DNA from: an uncultured Rhodocyclaceae bacterium
Lineage (GTDB): Bacteria; Pseudomonadota; Gammaproteobacteria; Burkholderiales; Rhodocyclaceae
Assembly: GCA_907163225.1 (NCBI GenBank)
Contig: OU015322.1
Coordinates: forward strand, 2,848,060 to 2,912,059
Length of the DNA: 64,000 nucleotides
Direction of reading: 5' to 3'
Below, piece after piece: positions 2,134 to 61,580 of this stretch; the first letter of the stretch is position 1; each line of letters starts with the position of its first letter. The notes below the pieces were generated by a model, which was not told the DNA's origin, searched no databases, and saw nothing but the letters and a program-made list of their open reading frames with translations. The position numbers and the translations under genes are program-made.

Positions 2134-3249
2134 TCAGGAGAGGATCAGATTGTCCCGGTGTATGAGTTCCGGCTCATCAACATAACCCAGGATGTTTTCA
2201 ATTTCGGGTGTTGTTTTGCGTGTAATCAGGCGGGCTTCGCCGCTGCCGTAGTTGCTCAGGCCGCGGGCGATTTCACGACCGTCCGGGCTGATGCAGGCAA
2301 CGGCGGCGCCGCGTTCGAATTCGCCTTCGGCGGCGATGACGCCAATCGGCAACAGGCTTTTTCCGGCTTTTAGCGCGTTGACCGCACCATCGTCGAGCAG
2401 CAGCCGGCCAGCCAGTTGCAGGTGGTCGGCCAGCCATTGTTTGCGGGCGGCGAGCGGCTGGGTTTGCGAGACGAGCAGGGTGCCCAGCGCTTCACCATTG
2501 GCCAGACGAATGATCGGATCGACTTCACGACCGCTGGCAATGGCGGTGTGCGCCCCGCTGCGAGCGGCACGCTTGGCCGCGATGACCTTGGTGATCATGC
2601 CGCCGGTGCCGATGCGCGTTCCGGCGCCACCGGCCATGGCTTCGAGCGACTCGTCGCCGGCCGTGGCTTCGCTGATCAGCGTGGCCTTGGGGTCTTTGCG
2701 CGGGTCGGCGGTGAACAGGCCGATCTGGTCGGTCAGGATGATCAGCGCGTCGGCTTCGATCAGGTTGGCAACCAGGGCGCCCAGCGTGTCGTTGTCGCCG
2801 AACTTGATTTCGTCGGTGACGACGGTGTCGTTCTCGTTGATGATCGGCACGACGCCGAGTTCGAGTAGCGTGGTCATCGTCGACCGGGCGTTGAGGTAGC
2901 GCTTGCGGTCGGCCAGGTCGTCGTGGGTGAGCAGGATTTGCGCGGTGTGCAGGCCGTGCTTGGCGAAAGCGGCTTGGTAGGCTTCGACCAGGCCGGCCTG
3001 GCCGACGGCAGCTGCCGCCTGCTTCTCATGCACGGTCTTCGGCCGGCGGCCCCAGCCCAGGCGCTGCACGCCGCAGGCGACGGCGCCGGAGGAAACGAGC
3101 ACGACTTCCTTGCCCTGCTGGCGCAGCTCGCTGATCTGGCGCGCCCAGTCTTCAATGGCGGCAAGGTCAAGGCCGGCGCCGTTGTTGGTGACGAGCGCCG
3201 AGCCGACTTTGACGACGAGGCGCTTGGCGGTGGCGAGGCGGGTGGTCAT
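2134..3249 (-). CDS. proB: Glutamate 5-kinase
   Basis: Phosphorylates L-glutamate with ATP to gamma-glutamyl phosphate, the first step of proline synthesis. The amino-acid kinase fold covers about residues 1-260 ([11 protein letters not shown] near the start, [11 protein letters not shown], and INENDTV in the substrate loop), followed by a C-terminal PUA domain (about 275-355, with [11 protein letters not shown] and [14 protein letters not shown]). The length (371 aa) is normal for the two-domain enzyme. Its ATG overlaps the TGA of hepT by four bases, so it is the last gene of the obgE-mntA-hepT-proB unit. proB usually follows obgE directly in related bacteria; here a toxin-antitoxin pair lies between. 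Confidence 0.97.
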
Positions 3250-3590
3250 GGTTGTGTTTCGAGGTGTTCGGAGAGCGCTTGGCGCAGGGGTTGCAGGTGC
3301 TGATTCAGGATGCCCCAGATCAGTTCGTGATCGAGGCCGAGATATTCATGGGCGAGTTGGTTCCGGAATCCGGCTATCTGGCGCCAGCGAATGGCCGGGT
3401 GAGATCCTTCCAGTTGTTCAATGCCGTAATCCTTGAAGGATTGCCCAATTATTTCGAGGTTGCGCAGCAGCGCGTCGCGAGCGAGGCGATTTTCCAGAAA
3501 GCTCTGCTTGTCGAGCGATGGCAGTTGTTCGGCTATGAAGTCGATGCAATCGAGGGCATGTATCAGAAAGATGCGCCGATCGGGGGTCAT
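3246..3590 (-). CDS. hepT: HepT-like HEPN toxin (DUF86)
   Basis: All-alpha HEPN-domain protein (114 aa) of the HepT/DUF86 family, in which the conserved R-X4-H motif forms an RNase active site. The motif is visible as RNQLAHEY (R-x4-H-x-Y) in the C-terminal half. The N-terminal part ([26 protein letters not shown]) fits the family. It starts inside the mntA stop codon (ATGA overlap) and its own stop overlaps the proB start, giving strict translational coupling on both sides. Known HepT proteins cleave tRNA or other RNA unless modified by the partner MntA nucleotidyltransferase. Activity here is inferred from the intact motif. Confidence 0.88.
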
Positions 3591-3877
3591 AAGGAGCGGG
3601 CTTCGTTGAGGATGCGATCTTTCAGGTAGGGAGACAGTCCGCCATCCGATACGACATCGACAGGGAGGCCGAGCATTTTTTCAGCGTCTTCCTTCAGATC
3701 AATCAGGTCAAACAGCGAAGCGCCGTCGCGGAAATGAACCAGCAGGTCGACATCGCTTTGCTCGTTGGCTTCGCCGCGCGCCACGGAGCCGAAAACACGG
3801 ACGTTTTCGGCTTTGCATCGGTCGGCGAGGGCAATCAATGCATCTCTTTTGTCGCGAAGTTGTTCGAGTGTCAGCAT
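3587..3877 (-). CDS. mntA: MntA-like nucleotidyltransferase antitoxin
   Basis: Minimal nucleotidyltransferase (96 aa). The catalytic signature VFGSVARGEANEQSDVDLLV contains the GSxxRG loop and the paired Asp residues (DVD) that bind metal. In the known HEPN/MNT system the MNT protein AMPylates a tyrosine next to the HEPN active site and silences the toxin. The partner here has the matching tyrosine (HEY). The gene lies two bases after the obgE stop codon and overlaps hepT by ATGA, so the pair has no visible promoter of its own and should follow obgE transcription. Confidence 0.88.
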   Translation of the reverse strand: MLTLEQLRDKRDALIALADRCKAENVRVFGSVARGEANEQSDVDLLVHFRDGASLFDLIDLKEDAEKMLGLPVDVVSDGGLSPYLKDRILNEARSL

Positions 3878-5873: not shown

Positions 5874-6218
5874 ATGGCTGAAATCACCACCGCCTCCGGG
5901 CTGGTCTATGAAGATACCGTTGTCGGCGAAGGCGCCGAGGCCAAGGCCGGTCAGCAGGTTACCGTGCATTACACGGGCTGGCTGACCAATGGCAGCAAGT
6001 TCGATTCGAGCAAGGATCGCAACGACCCGTTCGAGTTTTCGCTCGGCATGCGCCAGGTTATCGGCGGTTGGGACGAAGGCGTTCAGGGCATGAAGATCGG
6101 CGGCACGCGCAAGCTGACCATTCCGCCGCATCTGGGTTATGGCGCGCGCGGCGCTGGTGGCGTGATTCCGCCGAATGCAACGCTGGTTTTCGAGGTTGAA
6201 CTCCTCGGCCTGCGATGA
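5874..6218 (+). CDS. FKBP-type peptidyl-prolyl cis-trans isomerase
   Basis: Single-domain cytoplasmic FKBP (114 aa) that catalyses proline isomerisation in folding proteins. Typical motifs are [34 protein letters not shown] and a C-terminal strand with [11 protein letters not shown]. The aromatic pocket residues (Y, F, W, Y, F) are present. An in-frame codon at 5838 exists, but ATG 5874 has a clear aaggag site nine bases upstream and matches the family N-terminus, so it is preferred. No signal peptide. Its stop codon overlaps the next start (ATGA). Confidence 0.93.
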
Positions 6219-7423
6219 GCGGTTCCGACGATCCCTGGGGAAAATGGCGGAAGCCGGAGGCGGTAGCGCCCGAGGCTGAGGCGAAACCGGTTGCCACAAC
6301 GCGGGATGCAAAGCCTGATCTCGTGGCCATAAAAGCAAAGTCTGGCCCCACGGTCAACCGGGAAAATCGGCCAAAAATGAAATCGGCCGAGGCGGCGCCT
6401 GCGAAGGCCAAGCGGCCTGCGCCGGTCGTCGAGACGCCGGTGGCCGAGGATAAACCGGTCGATCCGACGGGGACGTTGGGCGTTCGTCGTTCCGCGCCGC
6501 GCGAGTGGGGCAAGTTGCCGTTGCGCGGCGGTTCGTCGTTGAGGAAGCCGTCTGCGCCGAAGGCGGCGCCGGTTGAGTCTGTCGCTGTATCGGCGCCGAA
6601 GTCGGTGTGGGCGAACAGGACGGATCGTCCTGAACGTGCTGCCAGACCGGCGTCGGCGCCCAAGGTGGCGGTCGTTCGTGACGGCCCGCCGCCGGAAGGC
6701 GTGCGCTTGTCCAAGGTGATGTCGGAGCGCGGCTTGTGTTCGCGGCGCGAGGCGGATTTGTGGATCGAGCGTGGCTGGGTGTTCGTGAACGGCGAGCAGG
6801 TCAGCGAGCTGGGTACGCGTATTGATCCGCAGTCGTCCGAGATCACCGTGACGCAGGATGCGAAGAAGGATCAGGCCAAGGCCGTGACCATCCTGCTGCA
6901 CAAGCCGGTGGGTTATGTTTCCGGCCAGCCGGAACCGGATTGTGTGCCGGCGGTGACGCTGATTACGGCTGAAAATCAGCTGCCCCATTCGGGTGGCCCG
7001 GAGTTCAAGCCGTGGATGTTGCGCGGCCTGGCGCCGGCTGGACGGCTGGACATCGATTCGACCGGCTTGCTGGTGCTGACCAGCGATGGGCGGGTGGCCA
7101 AGCGTCTGATCGGCGAGGACAGCGACGCGGAGAAGGAATATCTGGTTCGCGTTTCAGGCGAGTTGATCAAGGGCGGACTCGATCTGCTGCGTCATGGTCT
7201 GGAACTCGATGGCAAGCCGTTGAAGCCGGCCTGGATCAAGCAGTTGAATGAAGACCAGCTGCATTTCATCCTGAAGGAAGGCAAGAAGCGTCAGATTCGT
7301 CGCATGTGCGAACTGGTCGGGCTGCACGTGATTGGCTTGAAGCGGGTGCGGATTGGCCGAATCCGGCTGGGCGATCTGCCCATGGGTCAATGGCGCTTTT
7401 TGCGCCCGGACGAGGCATTTTGA
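6215..7423 (+). CDS. rluF: RluF-like 23S rRNA pseudouridine synthase with long N-terminal extension
   Basis: RsuA/RluB/E/F-family pseudouridine synthase (402 aa). An S4 RNA-binding domain (about 165-215, with [16 protein letters not shown]) precedes the catalytic domain with motif [17 protein letters not shown], whose Asp is the nucleophile. EKEYLVRV and the C-terminal [19 protein letters not shown] and DE resemble E. coli RluF (23S position 2604) more than RluB or RluE. The first 160 residues are a low-complexity Ala/Pro/Lys-rich extension not needed for the fold. That extension contains a full copy of the 36-bp motif described in the findings, translated as [12 protein letters not shown]. 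Confidence 0.88.
6348..6383 (+). repeat. 36-bp CGGTCAAC motif, intragenic copy
   Basis: CCACGGTCAACCGG followed by gaaaatc, ggcc and aaaaatgaaat, lying inside the N-terminal extension of the RluF-like gene. It aligns without gaps to the copies at 7417, 10651 and 41500. Confidence 0.8.
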
Positions 7424-7452
7424 TTTTGGCTGTTTTTTCCGGTTGACCGTGG
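7417..7452 (-). repeat. 36-bp CGGTCAAC motif, intergenic copy
   Basis: Minus strand CCACGGTCAACCGG, then aaaaaac, agcc and aaaatcaaaat, immediately after the RluF-like stop codon and before the terminator. Confidence 0.85.
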
Positions 7453-10650: not shown

Positions 10651-10686
10651 CCACGGTCAACCGGAAATTTTGCCCAAAATTGAAAT
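10651..10686 (+). repeat. 36-bp CGGTCAAC motif overlapping the end of the ABC ATPase gene
   Basis: CCACGGTCAACCGG then aaatttt, gccc and aaaattgaaat. It spans the last codons and stop of the minus-strand ATPase gene (ILGKISG at the C-terminus comes from it). Confidence 0.85.
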
Positions 10687-11370
10687 GTCGTCCGTGCGCG
10701 AATCCGACTTCAGTCGCCCATCCTCCATCACCAGTTGCCGACGGGCGCGGGCGCCCATGCCCGGATCGTGGGTGACGACAATCAGGGTGACGCCCCTGGC
10801 GTTGAGGGCTTCGAGCAGATTGACCACTTCCTCGCCGGTATGGCGGTCGAGGTTGCCGGTCGGCTCGTCGGCCAAGATCAGCGCCGGCTGCATGATGGTG
10901 GCGCGAGCGATGGCGACACGCTGGCGCTGGCCGCCGGAGAGCTGGTCCGGCTTGTGGTCGGCGCGCTGGTCGAGGCCGAAATCCTTGAGCGCCTGGGCGA
11001 CGCGCTTGTTACGTTCGGCTGGCGAAATGCCGGCCAGCGTCATCGGCAGTGCGATGTTTTCGGCCGCCGTCAGGCGCGGTACGAGGTGAAAGCTCTGGAA
11101 GACGAAGCCGATGCGCGTGCTGCGCACGGTGGCCTGCTCGTCGGGCGACAGCGTCGTGACGTCGCGGCCTTCCAGCTTGTAGGTGCCCTCGTTGGGGCGG
11201 TCGAGCAGGCCAAGCAGATTGAGCAGCGTCGATTTGCCTGAACCGGACGGCCCCATCACGGCGACGTATTCGCCGGCCTCGATCTGCAGATTCAGCCCGG
11301 CCAGCGCGTTGACCGTGGTGTCGCCGAGCAGGAAGCGACGTTCGATGCCGGAAAGTTCGATCAGCGCCAT
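10657..11370 (-). CDS. ABC transporter ATP-binding protein (MacB/LolD type)
   Basis: Cytoplasmic ATPase of about 237 aa with Walker A GPSGSGKST, Q-loop, signature LSGGQRQRVAIARA, Walker B LILADEPTGNLD and the switch histidine in VVTHDP. The closest groups are LolD and the MacB ATPase domain. ATG 11370 (MALIELSG) is preferred; an upstream extension in the same frame is arginine/proline-rich, overlaps the previous gene and looks non-coding. It starts four bases after the adaptor gene. The last residues are encoded by a copy of the 36-bp motif, so the C-terminal tail was probably acquired with it. Confidence 0.94.
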   Translation of the reverse strand: MALIELSGIERRFLLGDTTVNALAGLNLQIEAGEYVAVMGPSGSGKSTLLNLLGLLDRPNEGTYKLEGRDVTTLSPDEQATVRSTRIGFVFQSFHLVPRLTAAENIALPMTLAGISPAERNKRVAQALKDFGLDQRADHKPDQLSGGQRQRVAIARATIMQPALILADEPTGNLDRHTGEEVVNLLEALNARGVTLIVVTHDPGMGARARRQLVMEDGRLKSDSRTDDISILGKISG

Positions 11371-11374
11371 GCGC

Positions 11375-12529
11375 CTACTTCGCCTTGGCCTGGGCTTTTT
11401 CGTCCGGCGTGACCTTGGCGCCGGCCTTGACGCCTTCCTTGTCGAGCGAGGTGACGATGCGCTCACCGACCTTCAGACCTTCGGCTATCTCGGTGTATTC
11501 CCAGTTGCTCAGCCCGGCCTTGATCGGCCGTTCTTCCAGCTTGCCGCTGTCGCCATTGAAGACCAGCACCTTGCCACCTTCCTGAATCGCGGCGGTCGGG
11601 ATGCGCAGGACGTTGTCGCGGCCGGCGAGGATGATCTCGACGTCAGCGCTGTAGCCGACGAGCAGCTTGCCAGCCTCGGCCGGTTTCTCAAAATCGACCT
11701 CGATGTCGACCGTGCGCGCCTGCTTTTCGACGGCGGAAACGTAGGGCGCGACACGCCGCACTTTGCCGGGCAGCGTCTTGCCGGGCAGCGCGTCGAGCGT
11801 GATGCGTACCGGCTGGCCGATCTGGATCTTCGGCGCATCGACCTCGTCCATCGGCGCCTTGACGTAGAGGCAGGAGTCATCGATCAGGTCGATGGCCGGC
11901 GGCGTCGGTACGCCGGGGGGCGAGGGCGTCGAGTATTCGCCCAGTTCGCCGACGATCTTGGCCACCGTGCCGTCGAAAGGCGCGTAGAGCGCGACGCGGC
12001 CCTGCTCGACACGGGTGGCCCTGAACTTGGCTTCGGCCTGGGCGACGTCGGCCTTGGCCGTGTTGCAGGTGGCGCGCCGGACTTGGGCGTCGGTGCGGGC
12101 CGCTTCTTCCTTACTGGTCGAGACGAAGCCCTTGGCGCGCAATTCGGACTGTCTTTTTGCCTCTTTTTCGGCGTTGACCGCAGCAATGCAGGCTTCCTCG
12201 CCACGCTTGGCGCTCAGGGCGATCTGCGCCTGAGCCAGCGCCGCGTTGGCCTGCTGGTCATCGTTCCATAGCTTGAGCAGCAGTTGGCCCTTCTTGACCT
12301 TGTCGCCTTCCTTGACACCAAGGTACTCGATGCGGCCGCCGATGATCGTCGACAACTTGGTGCGCTGGCAGGCCTCGACCGTGCCGGCGCGGGTGTTGGC
12401 CAGCGTCGCCTCGACCTTGCCGGCGGCGACTTCCTTGAGCACGACGGGGAGGGGCTTGGGCCGGGTGAAGAAGAAAAGGCTAAGGCCGATGGCAGCGATG
12501 ACGACAAGGATGATGGCAACGCGACGCAT
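11375..12529 (-). CDS. MacA-like periplasmic adaptor (membrane fusion protein)
   Basis: HlyD/MacA-family efflux adaptor (384 aa from ATG 12529). One N-terminal TM (VAIILVVIAAIGLSLFFF) anchors it. A lipoyl half-motif (GRIEYLGVKEGDKVKKGQLL), a coiled-coil hairpin (about 85-165, LAQAQIALSAKRG onwards), the second lipoyl half (VALYAPFDGTVAKI) and beta-barrel/MP domains follow. It bridges the ABC permeases to an outer-membrane channel, which is not encoded here (a TolC-type protein elsewhere is expected). A longer reading frame exists upstream but overlaps the previous gene. Confidence 0.92.
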   Translation of the reverse strand: MRRVAIILVVIAAIGLSLFFFTRPKPLPVVLKEVAAGKVEATLANTRAGTVEACQRTKLSTIIGGRIEYLGVKEGDKVKKGQLLLKLWNDDQQANAALAQAQIALSAKRGEEACIAAVNAEKEAKRQSELRAKGFVSTSKEEAARTDAQVRRATCNTAKADVAQAEAKFRATRVEQGRVALYAPFDGTVAKIVGELGEYSTPSPPGVPTPPAIDLIDDSCLYVKAPMDEVDAPKIQIGQPVRITLDALPGKTLPGKVRRVAPYVSAVEKQARTVDIEVDFEKPAEAGKLLVGYSADVEIILAGRDNVLRIPTAAIQEGGKVLVFNGDSGKLEERPIKAGLSNWEYTEIAEGLKVGERIVTSLDKEGVKAGAKVTPDEKAQAKAK

Positions 12530-13348: not shown

Positions 13349-16300
13349 ATGAATCTGCGTAAGGCTTTTCTTAGTGTACTGGTGGCGTTTGCCGGCGTGC
13401 TGCTGTTGATCGGTGGCGTGATCCTGGGCGCCCTGGCGGCGTACAACAACGTCTATGACGTAGCTCGCCACCGGCAGGAGTCTTTGGTGCTGATGAACGC
13501 CGTGCGCCATGAGGTCGATTTGCTCAGCCGCTTGGTCAGTTCTTATGTCAGCACGGCCAACCCCCGTTTCCTGATCTATTACTACGACATCCTGAATATT
13601 CGCGAAGGCGTGAAGCCTGCGCCGGAGGGGGTTTCGGACACCTATTGGGAGCAGGTGATCGGTGGCGCCATAGCGCGCGTACCACCGCCCGCGGAGCCGG
13701 GGGTGGCGCTCTCTGAGCGAACCAGTCGCCTTGGCTTTGACGCCGCGGAACAGGCCGTTCTTCGTCGCATTTTCCAGATTTCCGACCAGATGAAGCAGGT
13801 CGAGCAAATTGCCTTTGCTGCGACGCAGGGCTTGTATGACCCGAAAAAAAGGGAGTTTGTTTCGGAGGCTGCGCCACAACCCGCTTTTGCCACCGCCTCG
13901 TTGCATGACTCACATTATCTGAAGCTGCGTTCGGATCTTGCGCTCGCCGTTGAAGAGCTGACCAATCTGGTCGACCAGCGCACGACCAAAAATTTGACGC
14001 ATGCCGGTGAGCTCCTGCATCGATGGATGGTTGCGGCATTAGTGCTGCTTTTAGCGGCCGCCATCGTTTTGATCCTGAGCTACAGTTACCTGAAAAGGCA
14101 ATTGCTCGCGCCACTGACTGTCCTCCACAAGACCGCCACGGCACTGGCCGAAAAATCGTTCAGTCAGCGAGTGGTTGATTTGCAAGGCGTCGAAGAAGTG
14201 AAAACCCTTGCTACCACGATCAACAGCATGGCAACTGCGATCGAGGCGGATATTGAACAACGTGAGCTCGTCCAGCGAGCCTTGCGCCAGGCGCGGGCGC
14301 GGGCCGAAGTCGCGGCCGATGCCAAGTCAATTTTCCTGGCCAACATGAGCCACGAAATTCGGACGCCGATGAACGCCATTCTCGGCATGGCCTATCTGGC
14401 GCTTAAATCCGGCTTGCCACCCCGTCAGCACGACTATGTTTCGAAGATTCACGCCGCCGCTCGTTCGCTACTGGGAATTCTCAACGACATCCTCGATTTT
14501 TCAAAAATCGAGGCAGGCAAAGTGGCTTTGGAGTCGGTGCCTTTCGATCTCGAACTGGTTGTCCAGAATGCTTTGTTCATGGTGCAGCAGAAGGCTGAAG
14601 GGAAGCAGATCGAGTTGATTGTCGATTTTCAGCCGACGCGAACGCTGCATCACCTGCTTGGCGACCCGTTGCGGCTCGGACAGATATTGATCAACCTCCT
14701 GTCAAATGCGGTCAAGTTCACCGAGGCCGGCCATGTCCGCCTGAGCGTCAGGCAAGAATCCTGCGATGGGCAAACATCGACCATCGACTTTCGAATCGAG
14801 GATACGGGGATAGGCATGACCTCCGAGCAGGTCAGCCGCCTTTTTCAGGAGTTTTCCCAGGCGGATGGGGCGACAACGCGAAAATACGGTGGCACAGGCT
14901 TGGGTCTGGCGATTTCAAAGCGCCTGCTTTCCGCCATGAATAGTGAAATTTCGGTCGAAAGTGCCGTTGACCGTGGCAGCGTCTTCCATTTTTCCTTGCA
15001 ATTGCCGCTGGTTCCCGGTGCTGCGGCCGCAAGTGACGACAAGCCGCTAGGTGCCTGTCATCGGGTGCTGGTGGTAGATGACGACAGTGCGGTGCGCGAA
15101 AGCATGGCGCAAATGCTGCTGGCTATGGGTTGTCGGGCAGTGGATCAGTCAGCAGGGGGCGAGGATGCCCTGATGAAGTTGACGGCTGCCAGCAAAAACG
15201 AAAATGCCTACGATTTGTTATTGCTCGACTGGTTGTTGCCCGACATGTCAGGCGGCGAGTTGATCGACGCACTCCGGGCAAGAGGCGTCGTGCTGCCGGC
15301 AAAGCTTGTCGTTGTTTCCTCGGCTGACGCGGTCTTGCTGCGGCACGAGGCGTCTCATCCTGAAATCACCGAGGTGGTCCAGAAGCCGCTCTTGCCGAAC
15401 GTCCTTCGTCGCGTGTTCGATGCCGGGGGCGATGCGATGGCGGCATTGCTGGAGACAGCCATTCCCCGGCCAGGCTGCTTGCAGGGGATGCCGATTTTGT
15501 TGGTTGAGGACAACGAGGTTAACCAGCAGGTCGCCGGAGAGATTCTCAAGGGCTGGGGAGCGAATGTGGAAATCGCCGTGAATGGTCAGATTGCCCTTGA
15601 TTTGTTGCGTTCGCAGGAGGCAGATCGCTTTGCCCTAGTCTTGATGGATATTGAAATGCCTGTCATGGACGGCCGGGAGGCGACGCGTCTGTTGCGTGAA
15701 GATGAACGCTTCCGCGACTTGCCCATTATTGCGATGACCGCGCATGTTGCCGGGCACGGCATGCGGGATGGTTTGGCCAAGGGCGTTACCGGCTATATCG
15801 CCAAGCCGTTCGAGCCAGACGAGTTGTTGGCGATGATTCAACCTTACTGGCATGTGTCGGCGCCGCAGGCATTGACCTCTGTTGAGCCATCGCCGGTGCT
15901 GGAAAGCGAGCAAGCGTTTATTGCTGCGGTGGATGCTGTGCTGGAAATTGATGCGGTTGTTTTGTTGAGAAGATTTGCCGGCCGTTTGCCGTTTCTCGCT
16001 AAAACATTGCGGCAATTTGCTGAGGATTGTCAAAATTGGTCGGATCGCTTGAGTGAATCGCTGGCCCGGGGTGAGTTGGAGTCGGCGCAGCGCCAGGTGC
16101 ATACGCTCAAGGGGCTAGCCGGTACTTTTGCCATGAAGCGCTTGCAGTCCGCACTTTACGATCTTGAGAACGCTATCCGCGGTGGCGTAATTGAACCGTT
16201 TGGCCAGATTGCCGAAGTCGATGCCCAGTTGCTTCCGCTAGTGGCGGGGCTGGAGCGTTTGCCAGTCATATTGCCTGCACCGGGGTCGGAAAGCGATTTC

Positions 16301-39983: not shown

Positions 39984-39988
39984 CGAGA

Positions 39989-41553: not shown

Positions 41554-41584
41554 AAAAAAGCCCGCGAATTTCGCGGGCTTTTTT
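41554..41584. terminator. Bidirectional terminator between the CinA-like gene and the phasin gene
   Basis: AAAAAAGCCCGCGAA-ttt-CGCGGGCTTTTTT stem with A and T runs between convergent genes. Confidence 0.92.
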
Positions 41585-41604
41585 GTCAGCGCAGGGCGCT
41601 TGAA

Positions 41605-43631: not shown

Positions 43632-44209
43632 GGCTTGGCTCTTGGTCGAATGTATTGTCCCCGGACATGCGACTGCAGGACGAGGGTTGAATTGTTGTTG
43701 TCGATCTGGGCGCCGATCCCGGTCACCCTGGATTGTCCCTGGGTAATTTCAACCGGGCTGCCCGTGAAGGCGATGCCGAGATTGGGCTGGGCGGTCAGTT
43801 CCGGCATGCGGGCGACCATTTCCGGCCGTCCCGGCGTGCCCGTGCGGGTCAGGACGACATTATCCCAGAGAAACACGGTTTCGCCCTTGGCGGTCACTTT
43901 GGCGTGATCGCCAGTGACCGTGACGGGGGCGCTTCCGGGGTGGTAACTGATCAGGGTTGGCGAAGTCAGTTCAGAGGTCTCGTCGTCCGGATAGTGCACA
44001 AAATGGGGGCCGGTCAGCCGGTATTTGATCTGGCCGGATTGATCGAAACGGCGAACGGTGAAGTTGTCGGCCATGGCGTCGGGGTCGTGGCGGAGCTTGC
44101 CGTCGTTTTTTGTTTCGCCACGGTCAACCGTACTTTGCAGCCAAAAACTGAGTCCGGCCAGCATCGCCAGAACGATGACCGGAAAGAGTTGGCTGGGCCA
44201 GTGTTTCAT
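43628..44209 (-). CDS. lptC: LPS export protein LptC
   Basis: Bitopic inner-membrane protein (193 aa from ATG 44209) of the LptB2FGC complex: one N-terminal TM (LFPVIVLAMLAGLSFWLQ) and a periplasmic beta-jellyroll (FTVRRFDQSGQIKYRLTGPH, HAKVTAKGETVFLWDNV, VRGQYIRPRAKP). Its ATG overlaps the kdsC stop by four bases; the longer reading frame upstream is out of place inside kdsC. A CGGTCAAC copy (44122) lies on the opposite strand within it. Confidence 0.9.
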   Translation of the reverse strand: MKHWPSQLFPVIVLAMLAGLSFWLQSTVDRGETKNDGKLRHDPDAMADNFTVRRFDQSGQIKYRLTGPHFVHYPDDETSELTSPTLISYHPGSAPVTVTGDHAKVTAKGETVFLWDNVVLTRTGTPGRPEMVARMPELTAQPNLGIAFTGSPVEITQGQSRVTGIGAQIDNNNSTLVLQSHVRGQYIRPRAKP

Positions 44210-44733
44210 TGCGCGGCGAGGTAGGGGGCGAAAGCTGCGTCGAGCTTGCCCTGGGCGGCGAGGATGAACTCGACGGCCTCGCGCACGGCACCCTTGCCGC
44301 CGGATGCCTCGGTCGTCATGTGGGCGCGTTCCAGTACGATGGGACGAGCATTCGCCGGCGCAATCGCCAGGCCGCACCTGGACATGGCTGGCAGGTCGAT
44401 CAGGTCGTCGCCCATGAAGGCAAGTTCCGACCAGTCAAGACCGAGCTTCTCCAGCAGTTGGGCGGACACAGCGCCCTTGTCGCCGACACCGTGAAAGACG
44501 TGCTCGATGCGCAGGTCTTTGGCCCGGCAGCTGACCACATTGGAGGTGCGGCCGGTGATGATGGCGACCTCGATGCCGGCACGTTTCAGGAGAACGATGC
44601 CGAGGCCGTCCTGGACGTTGAAAGTTTTCAGTTCGTGGCCGTCATCGGTGTAATGCAGGCCGCCGTCGGTCATCACGCCGTCGATGTCGAAGGCAACGAG
44701 CTTGATGCGGGCGGCGCGGGCTTGGGTGTCCAT
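44206..44733 (-). CDS. kdsC: 3-deoxy-D-manno-octulosonate 8-phosphate phosphatase
   Basis: HAD-family phosphatase (175 aa) that dephosphorylates KDO-8-P in LPS core synthesis. HAD motif I VAFDIDGVMTDG, motif II IITGR, motif III Lys in VGDKGAV, and motif IV FMGDDLIDLP are all present; it is the cap-less tetrameric type. It lies one base from kdsD, and the order kdsD-kdsC-lptC-lptA is the standard beta/gammaproteobacterial one. Confidence 0.96.
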   Translation of the reverse strand: MDTQARAARIKLVAFDIDGVMTDGGLHYTDDGHELKTFNVQDGLGIVLLKRAGIEVAIITGRTSNVVSCRAKDLRIEHVFHGVGDKGAVSAQLLEKLGLDWSELAFMGDDLIDLPAMSRCGLAIAPANARPIVLERAHMTTEASGGKGAVREAVEFILAAQGKLDAAFAPYLAAQ

Positions 44734-45731
44734 CAGATAACCTTGGCGTTGAATAGGTCGTGCATGTTGAGGGCGCCGATCAGCTGCTGCTCGCCGTCGA
44801 CGACGAGCAATGCGTTGATGCGCAGGCGTTCCATGACTTCGACCGCCTCGACGGCGAGGCGGTCGGGGCCGATGGTGCTCGGTGAAGGATGCATGACCGA
44901 GGCGATGTCGCCCTGCTGCAGGTCGATCCGTTTTTCAAAGGCGCGACGCAGGTCGCCGTCGGTGAAGATGCCGACGACCGTATTGGTCGGGTCGGTGATT
45001 GCCACCAGCCCAAGTCCACCGCGCGACATGGCGATGATGGCGTCGGTGATGCCGGTGCCCGGCGCGACTGCGGGCACCTTGTCACCGGCGCGCATGACGT
45101 CGCGAACATGCGTCAGCAAGCGGCGACCGAGTGAGCCGCCGGGGTGCGAGCGGGCGAAGTCGTCCGGCCCGAAACCGCGGGCGTCGAGCAAGGCGACGGC
45201 GAGTGCATCGCCCAGTGCAAGGGCGGCGGTCGTGCTGGCGGTGGGTGCCAGGTTGTGCGGACATGCCTCCTGGGCGACGCCGGCATCGAGATGAACATCA
45301 GCCTCGCGGGCCAGTGTTGAGCTTGGTTCGCCGGTCATCGAGATGATCTTGGCGCCCTGGCGTTTGACCGCCGGGACAATGCGCAGCAGTTCCTCGGACT
45401 CTCCGGAATTGGATAGCGCGAGAAGAATATCGTTGCGGGTGATCATGCCGAGGTCGCCGTGGCTGGCTTCGGCTGGGTGGACGAAGTAGGCCGGGGTGCC
45501 GGTGCTGGCCATGGTGGCGGCAATCTTGCGCGCGATGTGGCCGGATTTGCCCATGCCGCTGACGATCAGGCGACCCTGGCTGTTCAGGATCAGTTCGACG
45601 GCGCGCGAAAAATCCTCGTTAATTCGGCCTTTTAACGCGTTGACCGCAGCAGCCTCGATGCTCAGGGTCTGGCGACCCAGTTCCAGTGCGCGTTCCGGCG
45701 AGAAGCGGGCGGTAGATTGGCTTGGGTTCAT
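44733..45731 (-). CDS. kdsD: Arabinose-5-phosphate isomerase
   Basis: Converts D-ribulose-5-P to D-arabinose-5-P for KDO synthesis (332 aa from ATG 45731). SIS domain (about 40-175: VSGMGKSGHIARKIAATMAS, LLALSNSGESEELL) is followed by two CBS domains (about 205-325; VGIFTDGDLRRAFE, ALLVVDGEQQLIGALNMHDL). The ATG 45731 matches the family start; an upstream extension is basic and out of family. Divergent from the antiporter gene. Confidence 0.95.
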   Translation of the reverse strand: MNPSQSTARFSPERALELGRQTLSIEAAAVNALKGRINEDFSRAVELILNSQGRLIVSGMGKSGHIARKIAATMASTGTPAYFVHPAEASHGDLGMITRNDILLALSNSGESEELLRIVPAVKRQGAKIISMTGEPSSTLAREADVHLDAGVAQEACPHNLAPTASTTAALALGDALAVALLDARGFGPDDFARSHPGGSLGRRLLTHVRDVMRAGDKVPAVAPGTGITDAIIAMSRGGLGLVAITDPTNTVVGIFTDGDLRRAFEKRIDLQQGDIASVMHPSPSTIGPDRLAVEAVEVMERLRINALLVVDGEQQLIGALNMHDLFNAKVI

Positions 45732-45783
45732 GGGCTGGCTGAGGTTATGATGGTTCAAGTATACCTGACTTCGAGCAACGGTC

Positions 45784-47742
45784 TTGAGCGCACTCTCCCT
45801 TGTCCTCCTTCTGCTCGGCGCCTCGGTCTTGGCCGTGGTCGTCTTTCGGCGCTTCAATTTGCCGCCGGTGCTCGGCTATCTGTTTGTCGGCAGTGTCATC
45901 GGCCCGCACGCGCTGAATCTGATGAACGACATGTATCGGGCTGAGTACCTCGCCGAATTCGGCGTGGTTTTCCTGATGTTCTCGATTGGCCTGGAGTTCT
46001 CGCTGCCCAAACTGTACGCGATGAAACGTATCGTGTTCGGGCTGGGTTTGCTGCAGGTGGTGGTCAGCATGACGCTGATTGCCGGGCTGATCATGCTCTT
46101 TGGGGTCAGTTGGCAGCTTGCGGTCGCACTGGGCGGTGTCTTCGCGATGTCTTCGACGGCGGTGTTAACCAAATTGCTGGTCGAGCGCATGCAGCTGGAT
46201 TCGGCCCACGGGCGCGAGATCATGGGCGTTCTGCTCTTTCAGGATCTGGCCGTGGTGCCCTTGCTGGTCATCATTCCCTCGCTGACGCAGCCGCCGGAAA
46301 AACTGGCCATGCTGCTCGGTGTGGCGCTGATCAAGGCTGTCGTCGTGCTCGCCTTGATTCTCGTTTTCGGCCAGCGGCTGATGCGCAAGTGGTTCCATTT
46401 CGTCGCCCGTGCCAAGTCATCTGAAGTGTTTGTTCTCAACGTGCTGCTGATCACGCTCAGTCTGGCCACCATAACCGAGCTGGCAGGGCTTTCCCTTGCG
46501 CTGGGTGCTTTCGTCGCCGGCATGCTGATTTCGGAGACCGAATACAAGCTGCAGGTTGAGGAGGACATCAAGCCATTCCGCGACGTATTGATGGGGCTGT
46601 TCTTTGTCACCATCGGGGTGAAGCTCGATTTGCACATTCTCGTCGGCCTGTGGTGGCAGGTGTTGCTGGCCTTGCTCGCTTTGCTGGTGATCAAATCGCT
46701 GATCGTCGGTTTGCTCTCCTGGCGCCTGGGTGCGGCACCCGGCAATGCCATCCGTTCAGGGTTGTGGCTTTGCGCGGGCGGTGAATTCGGCTTCGTGCTG
46801 CTGGGTGAAATCGTCCACATGCCGAGAGAAATTCAGCAGGTGGCGTTGACCGTGCTGGTGCTCTCGATGCTGATCGCGCCGTTCATCGTCCAGTACAGCG
46901 AGCGAATCGTCGTTCGCTTCGTGGCCAGCGAATGGATGATGCGCTCAATGCAGCTGACCAGAATTGCCGCGCAGTCGATGGGTTCGGAAAAACACGTGAT
47001 CCTCTGTGGCTTCGGGCGAAGCGGACAGTATCTTGCCCGCTTTCTGAGTCAGGAGGATGTCAACTACGTCGCCCTCGACCTCGACCCGGATCGTGTCCGC
47101 GAAGCGGCGGCGGGCGGTGAAAACGTGGTCTACGGCGATGTTGGCAGAAAGGAAACCTTGTTGGCCGCCGGTCTTATGCGCGCCAGCGTCGTCATCGTGA
47201 CCGTCGGCGATACCCAATTGTCCGAGAAGGTTTTGCACCACGTTCAGGAATTGCGACCAGACCTGCCGGTGGTCGTTCGTACAGCCGATGAGCGCGATAT
47301 GGAGCGGCTGACCCGTGCCGGGGCGGCCGAAGTCGTGCCGGAGGCCCTGGAGGCCAGCCTGATGCTCGCCTCTCACGCGCTGGTGCTGGTCGGGGTGCCG
47401 CTCAATCGCGTGCTCAAACGCGTTCGCCAGACCCGATCACAGCGCTACAGCTTGCTGCGTGGCTTCTATCGCGGCATGAGTGACCGTGACTATGATGAAG
47501 AAGACGAGCACCAGCCACGTCTGCATTCCGTGTTGCTCGTGCCGGGCGCCGCAGCTATTGGGCAGACTTTGGGCCGCCTCAATCTCGATGCGCTGGGCTG
47601 TGAGGTCAGCGCCATACGGCGACGAGGCATCCGCGCGCTGGAGCCGGCACTGGAAACCCGCCTGGAAGAAGGCGATGTGGTTGTCGTGCTGGGTTTGCCC
47701 GAGGTAGTAACAGCCGCCGAGCAGCGCCTGCTACAGAAATGA
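45784..47742 (+). CDS. CPA2-family cation/proton antiporter with TrkA-N domain
   Basis: K+ (or Na+)/H+ antiporter of the KefB/KefC/YbaL type (652 aa) starting at TTG 45784. About 12 TM helices (residues 1-385) with the LGYLFVGSVIGP and GVFAMSSTAVLTKLL motifs and a conserved GAFVAGMLISETEYK. A cytoplasmic TrkA-N (RCK) domain follows (HVILCGFGRSGQYLARFL, YGDVGRKETLLAAGL), then a TrkA-C part (SVLLVPGAAAIGQTLGRL). It is often found beside kdsD in related genomes. Glutathione gating (KefC-like) cannot be decided from sequence. Confidence 0.92.
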   Translation: MSALSLVLLLLGASVLAVVVFRRFNLPPVLGYLFVGSVIGPHALNLMNDMYRAEYLAEFGVVFLMFSIGLEFSLPKLYAMKRIVFGLGLLQVVVSMTLIAGLIMLFGVSWQLAVALGGVFAMSSTAVLTKLLVERMQLDSAHGREIMGVLLFQDLAVVPLLVIIPSLTQPPEKLAMLLGVALIKAVVVLALILVFGQRLMRKWFHFVARAKSSEVFVLNVLLITLSLATITELAGLSLALGAFVAGMLISETEYKLQVEEDIKPFRDVLMGLFFVTIGVKLDLHILVGLWWQVLLALLALLVIKSLIVGLLSWRLGAAPGNAIRSGLWLCAGGEFGFVLLGEIVHMPREIQQVALTVLVLSMLIAPFIVQYSERIVVRFVASEWMMRSMQLTRIAAQSMGSEKHVILCGFGRSGQYLARFLSQEDVNYVALDLDPDRVREAAAGGENVVYGDVGRKETLLAAGLMRASVVIVTVGDTQLSEKVLHHVQELRPDLPVVVRTADERDMERLTRAGAAEVVPEALEASLMLASHALVLVGVPLNRVLKRVRQTRSQRYSLLRGFYRGMSDRDYDEEDEHQPRLHSVLLVPGAAAIGQTLGRLNLDALGCEVSAIRRRGIRALEPALETRLEEGDVVVVLGLPEVVTAAEQRLLQK

Positions 47743-50237: not shown

Positions 50238-51507
50238 GCGAGGGGTTTTGTCCGTTGCTGAGTCGATGGATTACGGTATCTCCCTTGCCTTTGAGATGGA
50301 CTGTCAGCGGTTCGTCGAAGGCAAAGTACTGTGCCAGTCGCTGGTGGGTAGTGGCATCGACGTGAATCATGCCCGGCGTGCCTTCGCTGGTGATTCGGCT
50401 GGCCAGATTGACCGTGTCGCCCCACACGTCGTAAATAAACTTTTTCTTCCCAACTACGCCAGCTACGACCGGGCCGGTACCAATGCCGATGCGTACACTC
50501 AACTGCATGTCGTTGACCGTGAAATCGCGGCGCAGCAGATCGCGCATGGCTATCGCCAGCTCGGCCATGGATCGCGTGTAATTGGTCAATTCGTTGTTGA
50601 GTCCGCCTGCCACCATGTAGGCATCGCCAATTGTTTTTATCTTCTCCATGCCATGGTGTTCGGCCAGTTCGTCAAATGACGAGAAAATGCGATTGAGCAT
50701 CGCGAAGACCTGTTGCGGCGTCATGCCCTCGGCGATTCGCGTGAAATTGACGATATCGACGAACATTACCGTTACGTCCGCGAAACCATCGGCGATGGCC
50801 TGGCTGTCGTGTTTCAGACGTTCGGCTATCGGGCCGGGCAGGATGTTGAGCAGAAGGCGCTCGGAGCGCTCCTGCTCGTCCTGAAGCAGCCGGTGAGTGG
50901 CTTCAAGGCTGCCTTGCGCCTTGGCTTTTTCCTGTACGGCGTAGCGCAGCAGCAGATAAACAATGCTTGAAATGGCGGCGAAATTGAGCGCGAAGAAAAA
51001 TACGCTGGTTTGGATCGAGACCCGTGGGCCTTGATTTCCTACGCTGTCGGCGAGAACGTAATCGAAAAACCCGGAGAGTGCAGTCAGGAAAATATAGGCA
51101 ATGAACCAGGCCAAGGATTCGCGCACGCCGAAAAAAAGGACGGCCCCGATCGGGGCGAGCAAGCCCCACAGGCTAGTGCCGCTGGCCGTGATGAAGTTGC
51201 CGATACTCCATTGCACGGCGAAGGGTGCGAATAGGAATAGCGCCAGTTGCGAATAGCGGAAAAGATCAAAATTGCCGCTACGGAGGTAGAACAGCAGGTT
51301 GCCGACCAGCAGCAGCTGAAAAACGAACGGTGCGGTAGCTGAAAATTGCGGCCCCATCTGGCCGTACAGGAAGAGCCAGAGCATGGAGCCGAGGCAAACC
51401 AGGCCGGTGGCGAAAACCAGCAACGATTTCTTCAGGCGCGTTTCCGCATCGTCTTCGGGGCGAACGCCGCCGGTGCGCAGTGCGAGAAGAAACGATTGGC
51501 GATTCAA
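50215..51507 (-). CDS. Membrane adenylate cyclase (class III)
   Basis: 430-aa membrane protein: six TM helices (about 30-200), a coiled-coil signalling helix (EKAKAQGSLEATHRLLQDEQ), then the cyclase domain with VTVMFVDIVNFTRIAE (metal Asp), EKIKTIGDAYMVAGG (substrate Lys) and YDVWGDTVNLASRIT (Asp and Asn/Arg). Lys and Asp at the purine-recognition positions favour cAMP over cGMP. It lies just upstream of the prepilin genes on the same strand, separated by about 100 bases with no clear linkage. Confidence 0.9.
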   Translation of the reverse strand: MNRQSFLLALRTGGVRPEDDAETRLKKSLLVFATGLVCLGSMLWLFLYGQMGPQFSATAPFVFQLLLVGNLLFYLRSGNFDLFRYSQLALFLFAPFAVQWSIGNFITASGTSLWGLLAPIGAVLFFGVRESLAWFIAYIFLTALSGFFDYVLADSVGNQGPRVSIQTSVFFFALNFAAISSIVYLLLRYAVQEKAKAQGSLEATHRLLQDEQERSERLLLNILPGPIAERLKHDSQAIADGFADVTVMFVDIVNFTRIAEGMTPQQVFAMLNRIFSSFDELAEHHGMEKIKTIGDAYMVAGGLNNELTNYTRSMAELAIAMRDLLRRDFTVNDMQLSVRIGIGTGPVVAGVVGKKKFIYDVWGDTVNLASRITSEGTPGMIHVDATTHQRLAQYFAFDEPLTVHLKGKGDTVIHRLSNGQNPSLSDKLPS

Positions 51508-55901: not shown

Positions 55902-57406
55902 GGCGCGATTTTCCGGATGACTTCAACTGAAAATGGCCGGGGCTTGGCGTCTTCATCCAGCCCGTCGCCACCGCGCAGGGCGCTGCCGGACTCGATGTCA
56001 AACGGGCGCTGCAATACGTTGACGGTATTGGCCGGGTCGGCGCGCAGGGCTTGTACGAATTGATCAAACACGGCCAGGGTTTGTCTTGTGGTGGCTCGTT
56101 CCAGGCGAATGGCGCCGCGCACTGTGGTGATTTCAGGCCCGCTGCTGATTGCTGCGGTCAACGGTAAAAATGTGCCATTTTTCCAATCGATGCTTTCGAG
56201 CGCGATGGCCGGCATACGATCCAGAACGCGGCTGATCATGGCGTAGCTCGAATTTGGCTGGCGCTGCAGGCTGCGCAGCTCGCCGTAGCGATGGGTTAGC
56301 CGGCGCAGCGTGTCGTTGTCGATCTCCAGTTGCGGGAACGTGGCAGCGATTTCGCTGTATCGCCGCTTGAGGTCGGCCGTTTCGGCCGAGAGCGCCGCAA
56401 CTTCCTGGCGCAGAGTATGCCCGACATAGGCTTCCTTGGCCGCGAAAAGCAGGCTGCCAAGCAGCGCGATCAGGCCGGCAGCGATCAGGCCGCGGCGAAT
56501 CTGCGATAACTGGAAATGGTGGCGGTGGTCAGCGTTGGCAAATTGCTGGCGGGGTGGCGCCGTGGTCAGCAGGTGCAGAAAAAGCAGTTCGCTGCGATTG
56601 TCGTCGGGCAGCGTGCGCAGCTGGAGCTTGTGGGCTGCAGCGTGGCTGTCGATCAGCGTGAAATCGAGCAGGCCGTGTTCGGGCCTGGCCTTTTCGATGG
56701 CGGGAATTGTCTGTGGATGGGCGACGATGAAGACAGGCAGGTTTTCATCGCGCCCGATCAGCCGCTGGCCGATCAGGTACTGGCGCAGCTTGCCGGATTC
56801 AGCCGCAAAGGCGCTGGCAATGCCGGCAATGCTGCTGTCGACCAGCGGGGCCATGCGTGAAAAATGCGCATGGCCGTCGACCAGGTAGCTTTCGCGGATC
56901 GAGCTGTCCTGCAAGGTAAGCAGCATGCAGCGCTGGCTCCCCAGCCCCAGTTTTTTGAGCAGCTCGCCGCCCAGCTGGGCAACGGTGTATATGCCGGCCA
57001 GTGCCGCGTCGGCGCTGGCAATCCGGCGTAACCAGGGCTCGAAATTTGCCGGGCTGGTCAGCGCCGAGAGCAGCAGCTTTTCGTTCTTGCGCTGGGATTT
57101 CTCGTAGCCCAGCGAAATGGCGCTGGAGAGTGAGGTGCCCAGAAAGTGCTGGCCGATCTTGCGGGTAATGAGCGCTTGACGGTCGCCGCCCTGCAGGAAA
57201 GGAATGGTCTCCAGTGAATGGCCTTCTTCGGCGACATTGGCCAGCAGTGAGAAATGACTGTTGCGGTTTTGGGCCAGGTATTCGGCAAACTGCTGAAGCC
57301 CGGTCTCGTCGTTGTCGAAAGCGCCTTCGGACAACAGCGCGCCCTGCTGCCAGGCGTAGGCCGAGAGCCGATGGGCGTTGAGGTAGAGAAGGCGACGGCT
57401 GGTCAC
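55898..57406 (-). CDS. MshI/PilM-GspL-like platform protein
   Basis: 502-aa protein with an actin-like N-terminal domain (about 1-290; RRLLYLNAHRLSAYAWQQG, LGGELLKKLGLGSQ), a TM near 315 (LIAAGLIALLGSLLFAAKE), a coiled coil and a PilN-like periplasmic part. It resembles a fused PilM-PilN or GspL and would recruit the ATPase. It overlaps the GspF-like gene by four bases. Confidence 0.8.
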   Translation of the reverse strand: MTSRRLLYLNAHRLSAYAWQQGALLSEGAFDNDETGLQQFAEYLAQNRNSHFSLLANVAEEGHSLETIPFLQGGDRQALITRKIGQHFLGTSLSSAISLGYEKSQRKNEKLLLSALTSPANFEPWLRRIASADAALAGIYTVAQLGGELLKKLGLGSQRCMLLTLQDSSIRESYLVDGHAHFSRMAPLVDSSIAGIASAFAAESGKLRQYLIGQRLIGRDENLPVFIVAHPQTIPAIEKARPEHGLLDFTLIDSHAAAHKLQLRTLPDDNRSELLFLHLLTTAPPRQQFANADHRHHFQLSQIRRGLIAAGLIALLGSLLFAAKEAYVGHTLRQEVAALSAETADLKRRYSEIAATFPQLEIDNDTLRRLTHRYGELRSLQRQPNSSYAMISRVLDRMPAIALESIDWKNGTFLPLTAAISSGPEITTVRGAIRLERATTRQTLAVFDQFVQALRADPANTVNVLQRPFDIESGSALRGGDGLDEDAKPRPFSVEVIRKIAP

Positions 57407-60316: not shown

Positions 60317-60323
60317 GCGCGGG

Positions 60324-61580
60324 TTAAGGCTGGCGCTCGGCTTGCAGTTCGCCCAGCCGCTTCTGGAGTTTGTCACGGTCGAAGGCGGCGGGACGCTTGG
60401 CCGCTGCCTCCAGGGCCAGCCGGTAATGTTGGGCGGCGAGTCGTGGCTGGCGCAGGTGATCGAGGCTGACAGCCAGGTTGAAGAGGTAGTCCGGGTTGTC
60501 GCCTTCTGCGGCGACAGAGTTGAAATAGGCCTGCTGCGCTTCCGACCAGCGGCTTTGGCGCGAATAGAGATTGCCCAGGGCGAAATTGAGCGGGGGCGAT
60601 TCCGGCTGGCCGGACAGCAGCGTTTTCAGGCGGCTTTCCGCTGTGTTCGGGTCGGCATCGGTCGCTGCATGGTTCAAATTGGCAGCCTGCGCGGCAGGGT
60701 CGCTCGGGTTGGCGACCAGGGCGCGTTGCCGCATGTTTTCTGCATCGGCCGGGCGCCCCTGGCGGTGGGCGATGGCGGCGAGGGCGAGCAGGGCATCCGT
60801 GTTGTTCGGTTCACGTTGCAGGACTTGTTCAAACTCCCGGCGCGAAAGGTCGATCTCTCCCCGCTGCAGGCTGGCAAAGCCGCGCACCAGATGGGTGTCA
60901 GGCTCGGGGCGGGTGCGGACGAGGCGAATCGGTGTGGCGCCCTGCGCTTCTGCGTCGCCCACCGACGGGCGCGCCAAGCGTCGCTCCGGACGCGGGAAAA
61001 GCGGTGCTGGGGCGGTTTGGGGTGGGGTTGCTGCGGTCAACTCGGATTTTTGGCCAAAATCGGGTGCTTCTGATAAAGGCACGGCGGGAAGCGGGGGGGG
61101 CGGCACTTGTGGCTGTTGCACTGGCGCTGGCGATGCGATGACGGGGCTTGCCGCGAGCGTTCCATGATTCAGGGCGGTCGTCTGGTACCAGACGTAGCCG
61201 CCGATGGCGACACCGGCAAAACCCAGTGTCCCCAAAGCCAGCCAGAGCGGTAACCGGGACGGTGGTTCGCTCGTCTGCTTGGCGGCAAAGGCGTTGCGAA
61301 CAGCCTCCTGCGACGCTGCGCGGCTTGCCGTGGCGGGGGCTTTTGCTTGCGGAGGGGGCGGGCGATTGACCGGCTGCGCAGTCGTAGCCAACTCAATATC
61401 CACCGCCTCGATATGGGCACCGAGCTTGGGGAGTGGGTTGGTAGTGCTCTTGGGTGGCTCAGAGACCAGTGGCTCAAGTTTGAGCGATTCGTCGGTCGAG
61501 GGCGGCTGACCCGTCAGGTTGCGAGTCGCTTCCTGCTTGCTCGTTTCTGCCCGCTTGAGGGCATCCATCAACAGGCTCAT
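60324..61580 (-). CDS. mshN: MshN-like TPR protein
   Basis: 418-aa bitopic protein: cytoplasmic N-terminus (MSLLMDALKRAETSKQEA, typical of MshN/GspB-associated proteins), a TM near 110 (LPLWLALGTLGFAGVAIGGY), a Pro-rich linker and C-terminal TPR repeats (about 225-415; AEGDNPDYLFNLAVSLDHL, LAAQHYRLALEAA). It is placed between the secretin and ATPase genes as in MSHA clusters. The linker carries a strong CGGTCAAC copy (61034) on the opposite strand. Confidence 0.85.
   Translation of the reverse strand: MSLLMDALKRAETSKQEATRNLTGQPPSTDESLKLEPLVSEPPKSTTNPLPKLGAHIEAVDIELATTAQPVNRPPPPQAKAPATASRAASQEAVRNAFAAKQTSEPPSRLPLWLALGTLGFAGVAIGGYVWYQTTALNHGTLAASPVIASPAPVQQPQVPPPPLPAVPLSEAPDFGQKSELTAATPPQTAPAPLFPRPERRLARPSVGDAEAQGATPIRLVRTRPEPDTHLVRGFASLQRGEIDLSRREFEQVLQREPNNTDALLALAAIAHRQGRPADAENMRQRALVANPSDPAAQAANLNHAATDADPNTAESRLKTLLSGQPESPPLNFALGNLYSRQSRWSEAQQAYFNSVAAEGDNPDYLFNLAVSLDHLRQPRLAAQHYRLALEAAAKRPAAFDRDKLQKRLGELQAERQP

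Follow-up and report, generated by a model that had tools for sequence, protein, structure and literature searches.

A dispersed element of Azonexus/Dechloromonas that is probably a DNA uptake signal sequence with a Pasteurellaceae-like layout

A dispersed element with a strict 8-bp core and phased A/T tracts is probably the uptake signal sequence (USS) of the bacterial genus Azonexus/Dechloromonas, and would thus represent a further family of such labels with a Pasteurellaceae-like architecture. We describe this element from a 64,000-nt stretch of DNA of an uncultured Rhodocyclaceae bacterium (GenBank assembly GCA_907163225.1, contig OU015322.1, positions 2848060 to 2912059; this whole stretch is referred to here as the window), from the genome sequence, a single contig, to which the window belongs (G000), and from related genomes.

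Copy number and enrichment of the core

The core of the element, CGGTCAAC, occurs in 27 exact copies in the window (9 on the forward strand and 18 on the reverse strand), which is the number that a first-pass annotation of this DNA had reported. Its estimate of two to three chance copies per 64 kb agrees with the results of 100 dinucleotide-preserving shuffles (2.40 copies; standard deviation, 1.63; maximum, 9), and a third-order Markov model gives about 5. Because the Markov model predicts more copies than the shuffles, the enrichment on this stricter basis is about 5-fold in the window and about 4-fold in 464 kb of G000. Twenty-five of the annotated positions were correct, and two were displaced (25421 instead of 25431 and 44121 instead of 44122). 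The 27 copies are not all independent, since those at 31311, 32115, 32428, and 33263 lie in a 300-nt unit repeated at 93 to 95% identity; those at 30359 and 30452 sit in related 89-nt units. The observation of a dispersed, repeated motif in the window is confirmed.

The genome of origin (3,463,890 bp) contains 521 forward and 572 reverse copies of CGGTCAAC (1,093 in total; 0.32 per kb), and the reversed control word is present in 442 copies (234 and 208). The third-order Markov expectation, which the annotation had proposed as a benchmark, was exceeded 4.2-fold in 464 kb of G000 (152 perfect cores versus 36.3 expected). The 24 one-mismatch variants together showed no excess (681 versus 670 expected). 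In raw counts, one-mismatch words outnumber perfect ones, as follows from the many chance neighbors of any 8-bp word; the excess over expectation is limited to perfect copies.

Architecture of the extended element

The core belongs to an element of approximately 39 bp, TTGCYACGGTCAACCGGAAAAATNGGCCAAAATTGAAAT, in which A/T tracts are about 11 bp apart. The exact 8-bp portion is CGGTC[A/G]AC, mostly with A or G just before it, and the tracts are centered about 10 and 21 bp beyond the midpoint of the core. In the A type of the element (231 copies from samples of G000, G210, and G244), the letters before the core are T at −5, C at −3, Y at −2, and A or G at −1, and CGGTCAAC is followed by CGG, an A/T tract at +11 to +16, GGCC-like letters, a second tract at +22 to +27, and a weaker third tract at +29 to +32.

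Among the 152 copies from G000, 104 were all A/T at +12 to +15 and 65 were all A/T at +23 to +27, compared with 1 and 3 copies at two control offsets. These counts support the annotation's claim of an extended element consisting of core plus A/T tracts, and the A-type tract positions bear out its description of two tracts one helical turn apart. The tracts are visible in the flanks of the 27 window copies, and the tract at +23 to +27 is present in pooled carriers of the A type (231 copies), the B type (391 copies), and other types (42 copies; see below).

Taxonomic range and dialects

In 199 genomes of the family, the highest counts of CGGTCAAC were found in four of the five genus members (631 to 1,093 copies); the fifth had 246 copies, and the other 194 genomes had 35 to 391. 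We also counted a dialect-neutral pattern (CGGTCRAC, 15 bases, and five A/T letters). Of 395 family genomes, 22 belonged to the genus, and the other 373 (67 genera) had at most 17 copies; of 399 order genomes, 6 belonged to the genus, and the other 393 had at most 21. Within the genus, the counts in 76 genomes were bimodal, with 39 genomes having 251 to 992 copies, 34 having 4 to 67, and three having 96, 97, and 126 (these counts are raw, and some of the genomes are only 70 to 90% complete). The 34-bp form of dialect A was matched by at least 115 stretches, and the named genome contigs among the matches listed were those of Azonexus, Dechloromonas, Azonexaceae, Rhodocyclaceae, Betaproteobacteria, Gammaproteobacteria, or Proteobacteria. 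Among the genomes sampled, the element occurs in a single genus, which the names of these contigs identify as Azonexus/Dechloromonas. A genome from another genus of the family (G079), otherwise unenriched, has three motif copies within 2.7 kb (contig C150, positions 38771 to 41481), one of them in the A dialect, and this cluster is possibly DNA gained from a carrier.

There are at least two dialects in the genus, CGGTCAAC and CGGTCGAC. The 27-bp pattern of dialect A was present in 73 to 340 copies in 12 of the 76 genomes, in 39 copies in G242, and in at most 15 copies in the other 63, and its reversed control was found in none of the 76. Other carriers use the core CGGTCGAC, according to unbiased k-mer counts in small samples. 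In this B type (391 copies, eight genomes), the tract at +23 to +27 is strong and that at +12 to +16 is weak; in the weakest B genome (G204), 6 of 50 copies were all A/T at +23 to +27. The richest B genome (G247) contains 2,577 copies of CGGTCGAC and 955 of CGGTCAAC in 3.7 Mb, i.e., nearly one per kb. Two genomes (G227 and G253) have the CGGTCAAC core with other linkers and with tracts at +12 to +16 and +23 to +28 (42 copies), which is perhaps a third dialect. Only faint traces were detected in two sampled non-carriers (40 copies). In dialect B genomes (e.g., G201), the core is often part of a longer palindrome, CGGTCGACCG, so that copies on the two strands overlap; for Simonsiella muelleri, PMC3630211 reports dyad pairs in which two dialects overlap.

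Position relative to genes, strand, and acquired DNA

Of the 152 copies in G000, 18 lay outside every open reading frame (ORF) of at least 100 aa, compared with 6.8 expected by bases, as did 10 of the 30 full-pattern copies and 127 of 4,218 pooled same-composition words (a pool that includes the motif itself). The noncoding preference was retested in this way because a crude gene caller had misplaced several window copies, at least two of which it set between genes and which lie in Pfam-supported ORFs. According to the crude calls, 52 of the 152 copies were intergenic versus 24.6 expected, 53 were sense, and 46 were antisense, all of these being rough figures. The copies prefer noncoding DNA, and many are still within genes. 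The annotation had described the motif in genes as being read mostly as AVN or TVN, and this holds for 41 of the 53 copies called sense, which share one frame (xCG-GTC-AAC, i.e., T/A-V-N), with the caveat that some of the crude calls are wrong.

Strand polarity was judged by local GC skew. The copies are split 18:9 between the strands of the window, and 96 of 152 (63%; 96:56) fall on the locally C-rich strand of G000. Of 49 usable same-composition words, a sample that may include the motif itself, 9 were as skewed or more, and five other genomes (G210, G201, G202, G204, and G147) were near 1:1. On these grounds polarity was rejected; with 521 forward versus 572 reverse copies in G000, no clear strand polarity was found, a property that the annotation had listed as one that would speak against an uptake signal.

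A 33.7-kb element with a recombinase-like gene (identified by eye) splits comEC in the carrier G230 and contains no copies versus 7.3 expected; as a single element, this is modest evidence that the motif is rare in recently acquired DNA. Only 1 of 20 sampled 20-kb stretches of G000 was without CGGTCAAC (positions 1731001 to 1751000). This stretch is probably a genomic island, its ORFs resembling, by eye, integrase and type I restriction-modification genes.

Gain, loss, and substitution

A ComEC tree comprised 70 of 71 genomes (G211, with a short ComEC fragment, was left out); the B label, here and in the pilin tree described below, denotes all carriers without the A-type pattern, including G227 and G253. 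All labels together required 14 changes on this tree, compared with 32.1 for shuffled labels, and the A label required 4. The 13 A-dialect genomes share one 27-genome section of the tree with 14 non-carriers, and the other carriers are spread around it. For the non-carrier label, 11 changes are required, of which well-supported (starred) branches force at least 7. The simplest reading of this single-gene tree, which has several open forks, is that the element may be an ancestral trait that underwent a later dialect shift and many losses.

At one aligned site in comEC, near residue 187 (with the 858-residue G000 frame as the query), 31 of 33 carriers have the core, as does 1 of 2 intermediates, and none of 23 non-carriers has it; these counts cover the genomes with sequence there and leave out 12 others. 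The intermediates G220, G242, and G266 are not among the carriers in this count and were counted as having the motif in one ComEC-tree tally. The site has A or G as the dialect letter, encodes a weakly conserved protein stretch, and aligns in frame, mostly without an insertion/deletion (indel), between carriers and non-carriers; G252 has a core mismatch. The core at this site was apparently written by substitution.

We also aligned 472 A-type copies to samples of two non-carriers (240 kb). Thirteen were alignable, with a core identity of 0.66 and a flank identity of 0.83 (2 intact, 2 with a core indel, and 11 without an indel), compared with identities of 0.82 and 0.82 for control words, 13 of 45 of which were intact. 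When G000 copies were aligned to other A carriers, 16 of 26 were intact (core, 0.90; flank, 0.84), compared with 15 of 36 control words (0.83 and 0.81). These alignments therefore suggest that sites arise and vanish by substitution and tend to persist in carriers.

Comparison with known uptake sequences

Well-described cases of genome-wide uptake labels come from two families, Neisseriaceae and Pasteurellaceae (PMC1626085). The USS and the DNA uptake sequences (DUS) of these families occur at about one copy per kb, arise by substitution, prefer noncoding DNA, and show no orientation bias; their spacing is somewhat regular, some of them form closely spaced pairs in opposite orientation, and perfect copies outnumber those with a single mismatch (PMC1626085). 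Pasteurellaceae USS have two A/T segments 3′ of the core and subclade-specific types (PMC1626085).

The Azonexus element and the Pasteurellaceae USS (Hin AAGTGCGGT and Apl ACAAGCGGT) are alike in having a strict short core, two downstream A/T segments about one helical turn apart, and many copies, and also in their lack of orientation bias, substitution origin, lineage-specific types, and decay in some lineages. Both cores contain CGGT. The annotation's comparison with a Pasteurellaceae-type USS accordingly holds for the layout of a core plus two A/T segments and fails for the core letters, which are CGGTC[A/G]AC here. Furthermore, the first A/T segment starts about 7 bp after CGGT in the Azonexus element and directly 3′ of CGGT in the USS, and the Azonexus element belongs to a GC-rich betaproteobacterial lineage, has no close-pair excess in G000, and is a predicted uptake signal. 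Neisseriaceae DUS resemble it in their clade-following dialects, in the existence of genomes without any dialect (PMC3630211), and in their scarcity in genomic islands, where DUS drop drastically (PMC7371117). They differ in that they are read by the minor pilin ComP, are unrelated in sequence, and are described as having no flanking motifs (PMC1626085). We found no report of an uptake sequence in Rhodocyclales among the papers listed in the literature searches, with subscription papers and bioRxiv preprints mostly outside the coverage of the search, and Dechloromonas, Azoarcus, and Rhodocyclales are not named in the available part of PMC5217627.

Overall, the annotation's proposal that the motif is built like a DNA uptake signal sequence is supported by the Markov excess and the absence of polarity, and the dialects, the restriction to a single genus, the repeated loss, the in-place substitution, and the absence from a mobile element agree with it. 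Most of the hallmarks of known uptake sequences that can be read from sequence are thus present.

Alternative explanations

The main rival is a chromosome-acting site, which would be recognized by a protein of the nucleoid or of replication, segregation, or recombination and would have accumulated as an aid to handling the cell's own DNA. HIP1, Chi, and KOPS are over-represented chromosomal motifs with high genome-wide counts in a limited taxon. A slowly accumulated motif of this kind would also be absent from recent mobile DNA and could be limited to one genus, and phased A/T tracts would suit a DNA-bending nucleoid protein too. The element differs from HIP1, Chi, and KOPS, however, in having phased A/T tracts and dialects and in lacking notable strand polarity; its spacing is near random, the dialects have shifted, and several losses have left nearly half of the genus without it. 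Regulatory binding sites have a relaxed consensus, unlike the perfect-only excess found here (PMC1626085). Chromosome-acting sites explain the losses, the dialects, and the perfect-only excess less well than an uptake signal, and we consider them an unlikely explanation.

A repeat or miniature mobile element that spreads by inserting copies of itself elsewhere in the genome would fit the hundreds of similar copies, the duplicated family at 30.3 to 33.4 kb of the window, and the core indels in 2 of 13 aligned sites. It is largely refuted, and very improbable, given that 11 of the 13 carrier copies align to non-carriers without a core indel, that the comEC site aligns in frame, that many copies share one frame inside genes, and that repeated integron cassettes account for the local family. 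Less probable still is an origin of the motif as a side effect of base composition or codon use (Ala/Thr-Val-Asn). This reading would fit the sense copies, which are mostly TVN or AVN, and the high count of the reversed control word (442 copies). It is refuted by the 4.2-fold excess over the third-order Markov expectation, the 18 copies among 152 that fall outside ORFs of at least 100 aa (6.8 expected), the tracts outside the core, the close relatives without the element, and the near equality of antisense and sense copies (46 versus 53).

Points against an uptake signal and candidate receptors

Several observations weigh against the interpretation of the element as an uptake signal. Its density in G000 is below the classical value of one per kb. 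Counts per 20 kb in this genome are close to random scatter (mean, 6.25; variance, 7.46; 20 stretches), with no clear sign of more-than-random regularity among these stretches. Only 2 of 132 spacings were below 100 bp versus 5.3 expected, so that there is no excess of close pairs, a trait of the two known families that we do not treat as defining for uptake signals. At the comEC site, G000 itself has a one-mismatch core beside a small insertion, and six independent pairs on starred branches gave five in agreement, none opposed, and one without a difference (sign test, P = 0.0625). The substitution counts given above rest on small numbers of aligned copies (13 and 26). Among the papers listed in the literature searches, none described DNA uptake or transformation in this organism. 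The distribution of a candidate receptor also belongs here: a pilin of the ComP_DUS family was detected in 70 of 76 genus genomes, with or without the motif. In a tree of 71 pilins from 69 genomes (mostly one per genome), the non-carrier label required 19 changes versus 22.3 after shuffling (40 of 500 shuffles were as low), and the B label required 19 versus 22.2 (43 of 500).

The ComEC family, comEC being the sole competence gene searched, was detected in 71 of 76 genus genomes. The presence of ComEC was rejected as an explanation of motif loss, since non-carriers have ComEC too. G000 has 19 pilin-like matches, one of which, in a minor-pilin cluster, corresponds to Pfam ComP_DUS (51.8 bits; cutoff, 27.3). 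On the pilin tree, the A label was clearly clustered (8 changes versus 12.2; 0 of 500), more loosely than on the ComEC tree with its 4 changes, and all labels together required 27 changes versus 32.7 (1 of 200). The ComP_DUS-family pilin was set aside as the receptor because it occurs in carriers and non-carriers alike and because its tree follows the motif weakly, less than that of ComEC; this differs from the situation in Neisseriaceae. FimT, which gave a protein-search match in only 27 of 76 genomes at an E value of 1e-8, proved too divergent for such a comparison and was likewise set aside. The gene for the ComP_DUS-family pilin varies greatly among species; at several of six inspected loci it lies near what appear by eye to be a PilY1-like ORF and rpsT, as if it were swapped as a cassette.

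In 8 of 70 genomes (G206, G207, G230, G242, G246, G251, G267, and G268), comEC is interrupted near FNRTGTTHLxSISGLHV (query residue about 320 to 340), and the sequences upstream of the break differ among these genomes. Both halves of the gene were seen in G230 and G251, about 33 kb apart, and only the C-terminal part was seen in the other six. The gene looks like an integration hotspot, and mobile elements may therefore switch off competence.

Proposed mechanism and implications

If the element is an uptake signal, the type IV pilus and the competence machinery would prefer labeled DNA when binding and importing DNA from outside, so that the cells would favor DNA of their own kind. A surface receptor, probably a minor pilin, would read the core, and the phased A/T tracts would let the DNA bend on entry; the minor pilin ComN/PpdA is the predicted receptor in Pasteurellaceae (PMC12616744). 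Labeled DNA would be imported and recombined more often, label-creating mutations could spread through this biased uptake and recombination, and the labels could build up to hundreds to thousands of copies. Labels would decay when competence or specificity is lost, and a change in specificity would lead to a new dialect overwritten in place.

With less assurance than for the uptake function itself, we lean toward a broader scenario based on the comparison of these genomes. In this scenario, the uptake-signal family evolved independently, was ancestral to Azonexus/Dechloromonas, split into two or three dialects, was lost repeatedly, and converged on the Pasteurellaceae layout of a CGGT-containing core plus phased A/T tracts. 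The form of such labels would then be dictated by the shape of the DNA at the uptake pore as well as by the receptor. The question of why uptake labels arise has so far had two data points, i.e., two families, and Azonexus, an environmental genus, would add a further case. The 76 sampled species, nearly half of which are without the label, and the dialects allow tests of label appearance, change, and decay and of the reader protein. If the element is indeed an uptake signal, these bacteria are predicted to be naturally transformable, and the label could serve to recognize DNA of foreign origin in their genomes.

Copies in the window and their surroundings

Core positions in the window are given with the strand (+ or −). 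Full elements with both tracts have their cores at 6351 to 6358 (+), near the 5′ end of ORF 6215-7423 (pseudouridine synthase; TVN) and perhaps upstream of its true start, and at 7442 to 7449 (−) and 10654 to 10661 (+), which are intergenic by the crude gene calls. Another full element, at 41503 to 41510 (+), is intergenic by the same calls and lies in ORF 41279-41911 (no Pfam match). The core copy at 40359 to 40366 (+), with tracts, is also intergenic by these calls and is contained in ORFs 39797-40723 and 40171-41484. The intergenic call was wrong for the copy with weak tracts at 11308 to 11315 (−), which lies in ORF 10660-11466 (ABC transporter ATPase, Pfam), and, unless the true start is downstream, for the copy with tracts at 45639 to 45646 (−) in ORF 44736-45857 (KpsF/GutQ family).

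Sense copies are located in the glutamate 5-kinase gene (proB; 2377 to 2384, −; AVN), an HlyD-like gene (12173 to 12180, −; AVN; tracts present), an OMP decarboxylase-family gene (24171 to 24178, −; TVN), an Eco57I-like methylase gene (25421 to 25428, −; TVN), and a nucleotide cyclase gene (50512 to 50519, −; TVN; weak tracts). The methylase gene occupies positions 24536 to 25714 and is of the Eco57I restriction-modification type. Antisense copies are found in a hybrid histidine kinase gene (14966 to 14973, −), in a cation/proton exchanger gene (46845 to 46852, −; weak tracts), in LptC-family ORF 43631-44377 (44121 to 44128, +), where the crude caller chose an opposite ORF, and in called ORFs at 19892 to 19899 (−), 56155 to 56162 (+; tracts), and 61034 to 61041 (+; tracts). 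A DEAH-type helicase ORF (DUF3418) carries copies with tracts at 36114 to 36121 (+) and 36730 to 36737 (+; TVN) and an antisense copy with weak tracts at 37109 to 37116 (−).

A chromosomal integron extends from 30335 to 36007. Its integrase gene (35027 to 36007; TIGR02249, 489 bits) adjoins six 89-nt repeats, which appear attC-like from their TCTAAC...GTTAG ends, and a 300-nt cassette unit in four copies (93 to 95% identity). The core of a full element at 30359 to 30366 (−), beside or in the cassette array, and the core copy at 30452 to 30459 (−) form a close pair in the same orientation. Each of the four 300-nt units carries the uptake-like motif, with cores of full elements at 31311 to 31318, 32115 to 32122, 32428 to 32435, and 33263 to 33270 (all −).

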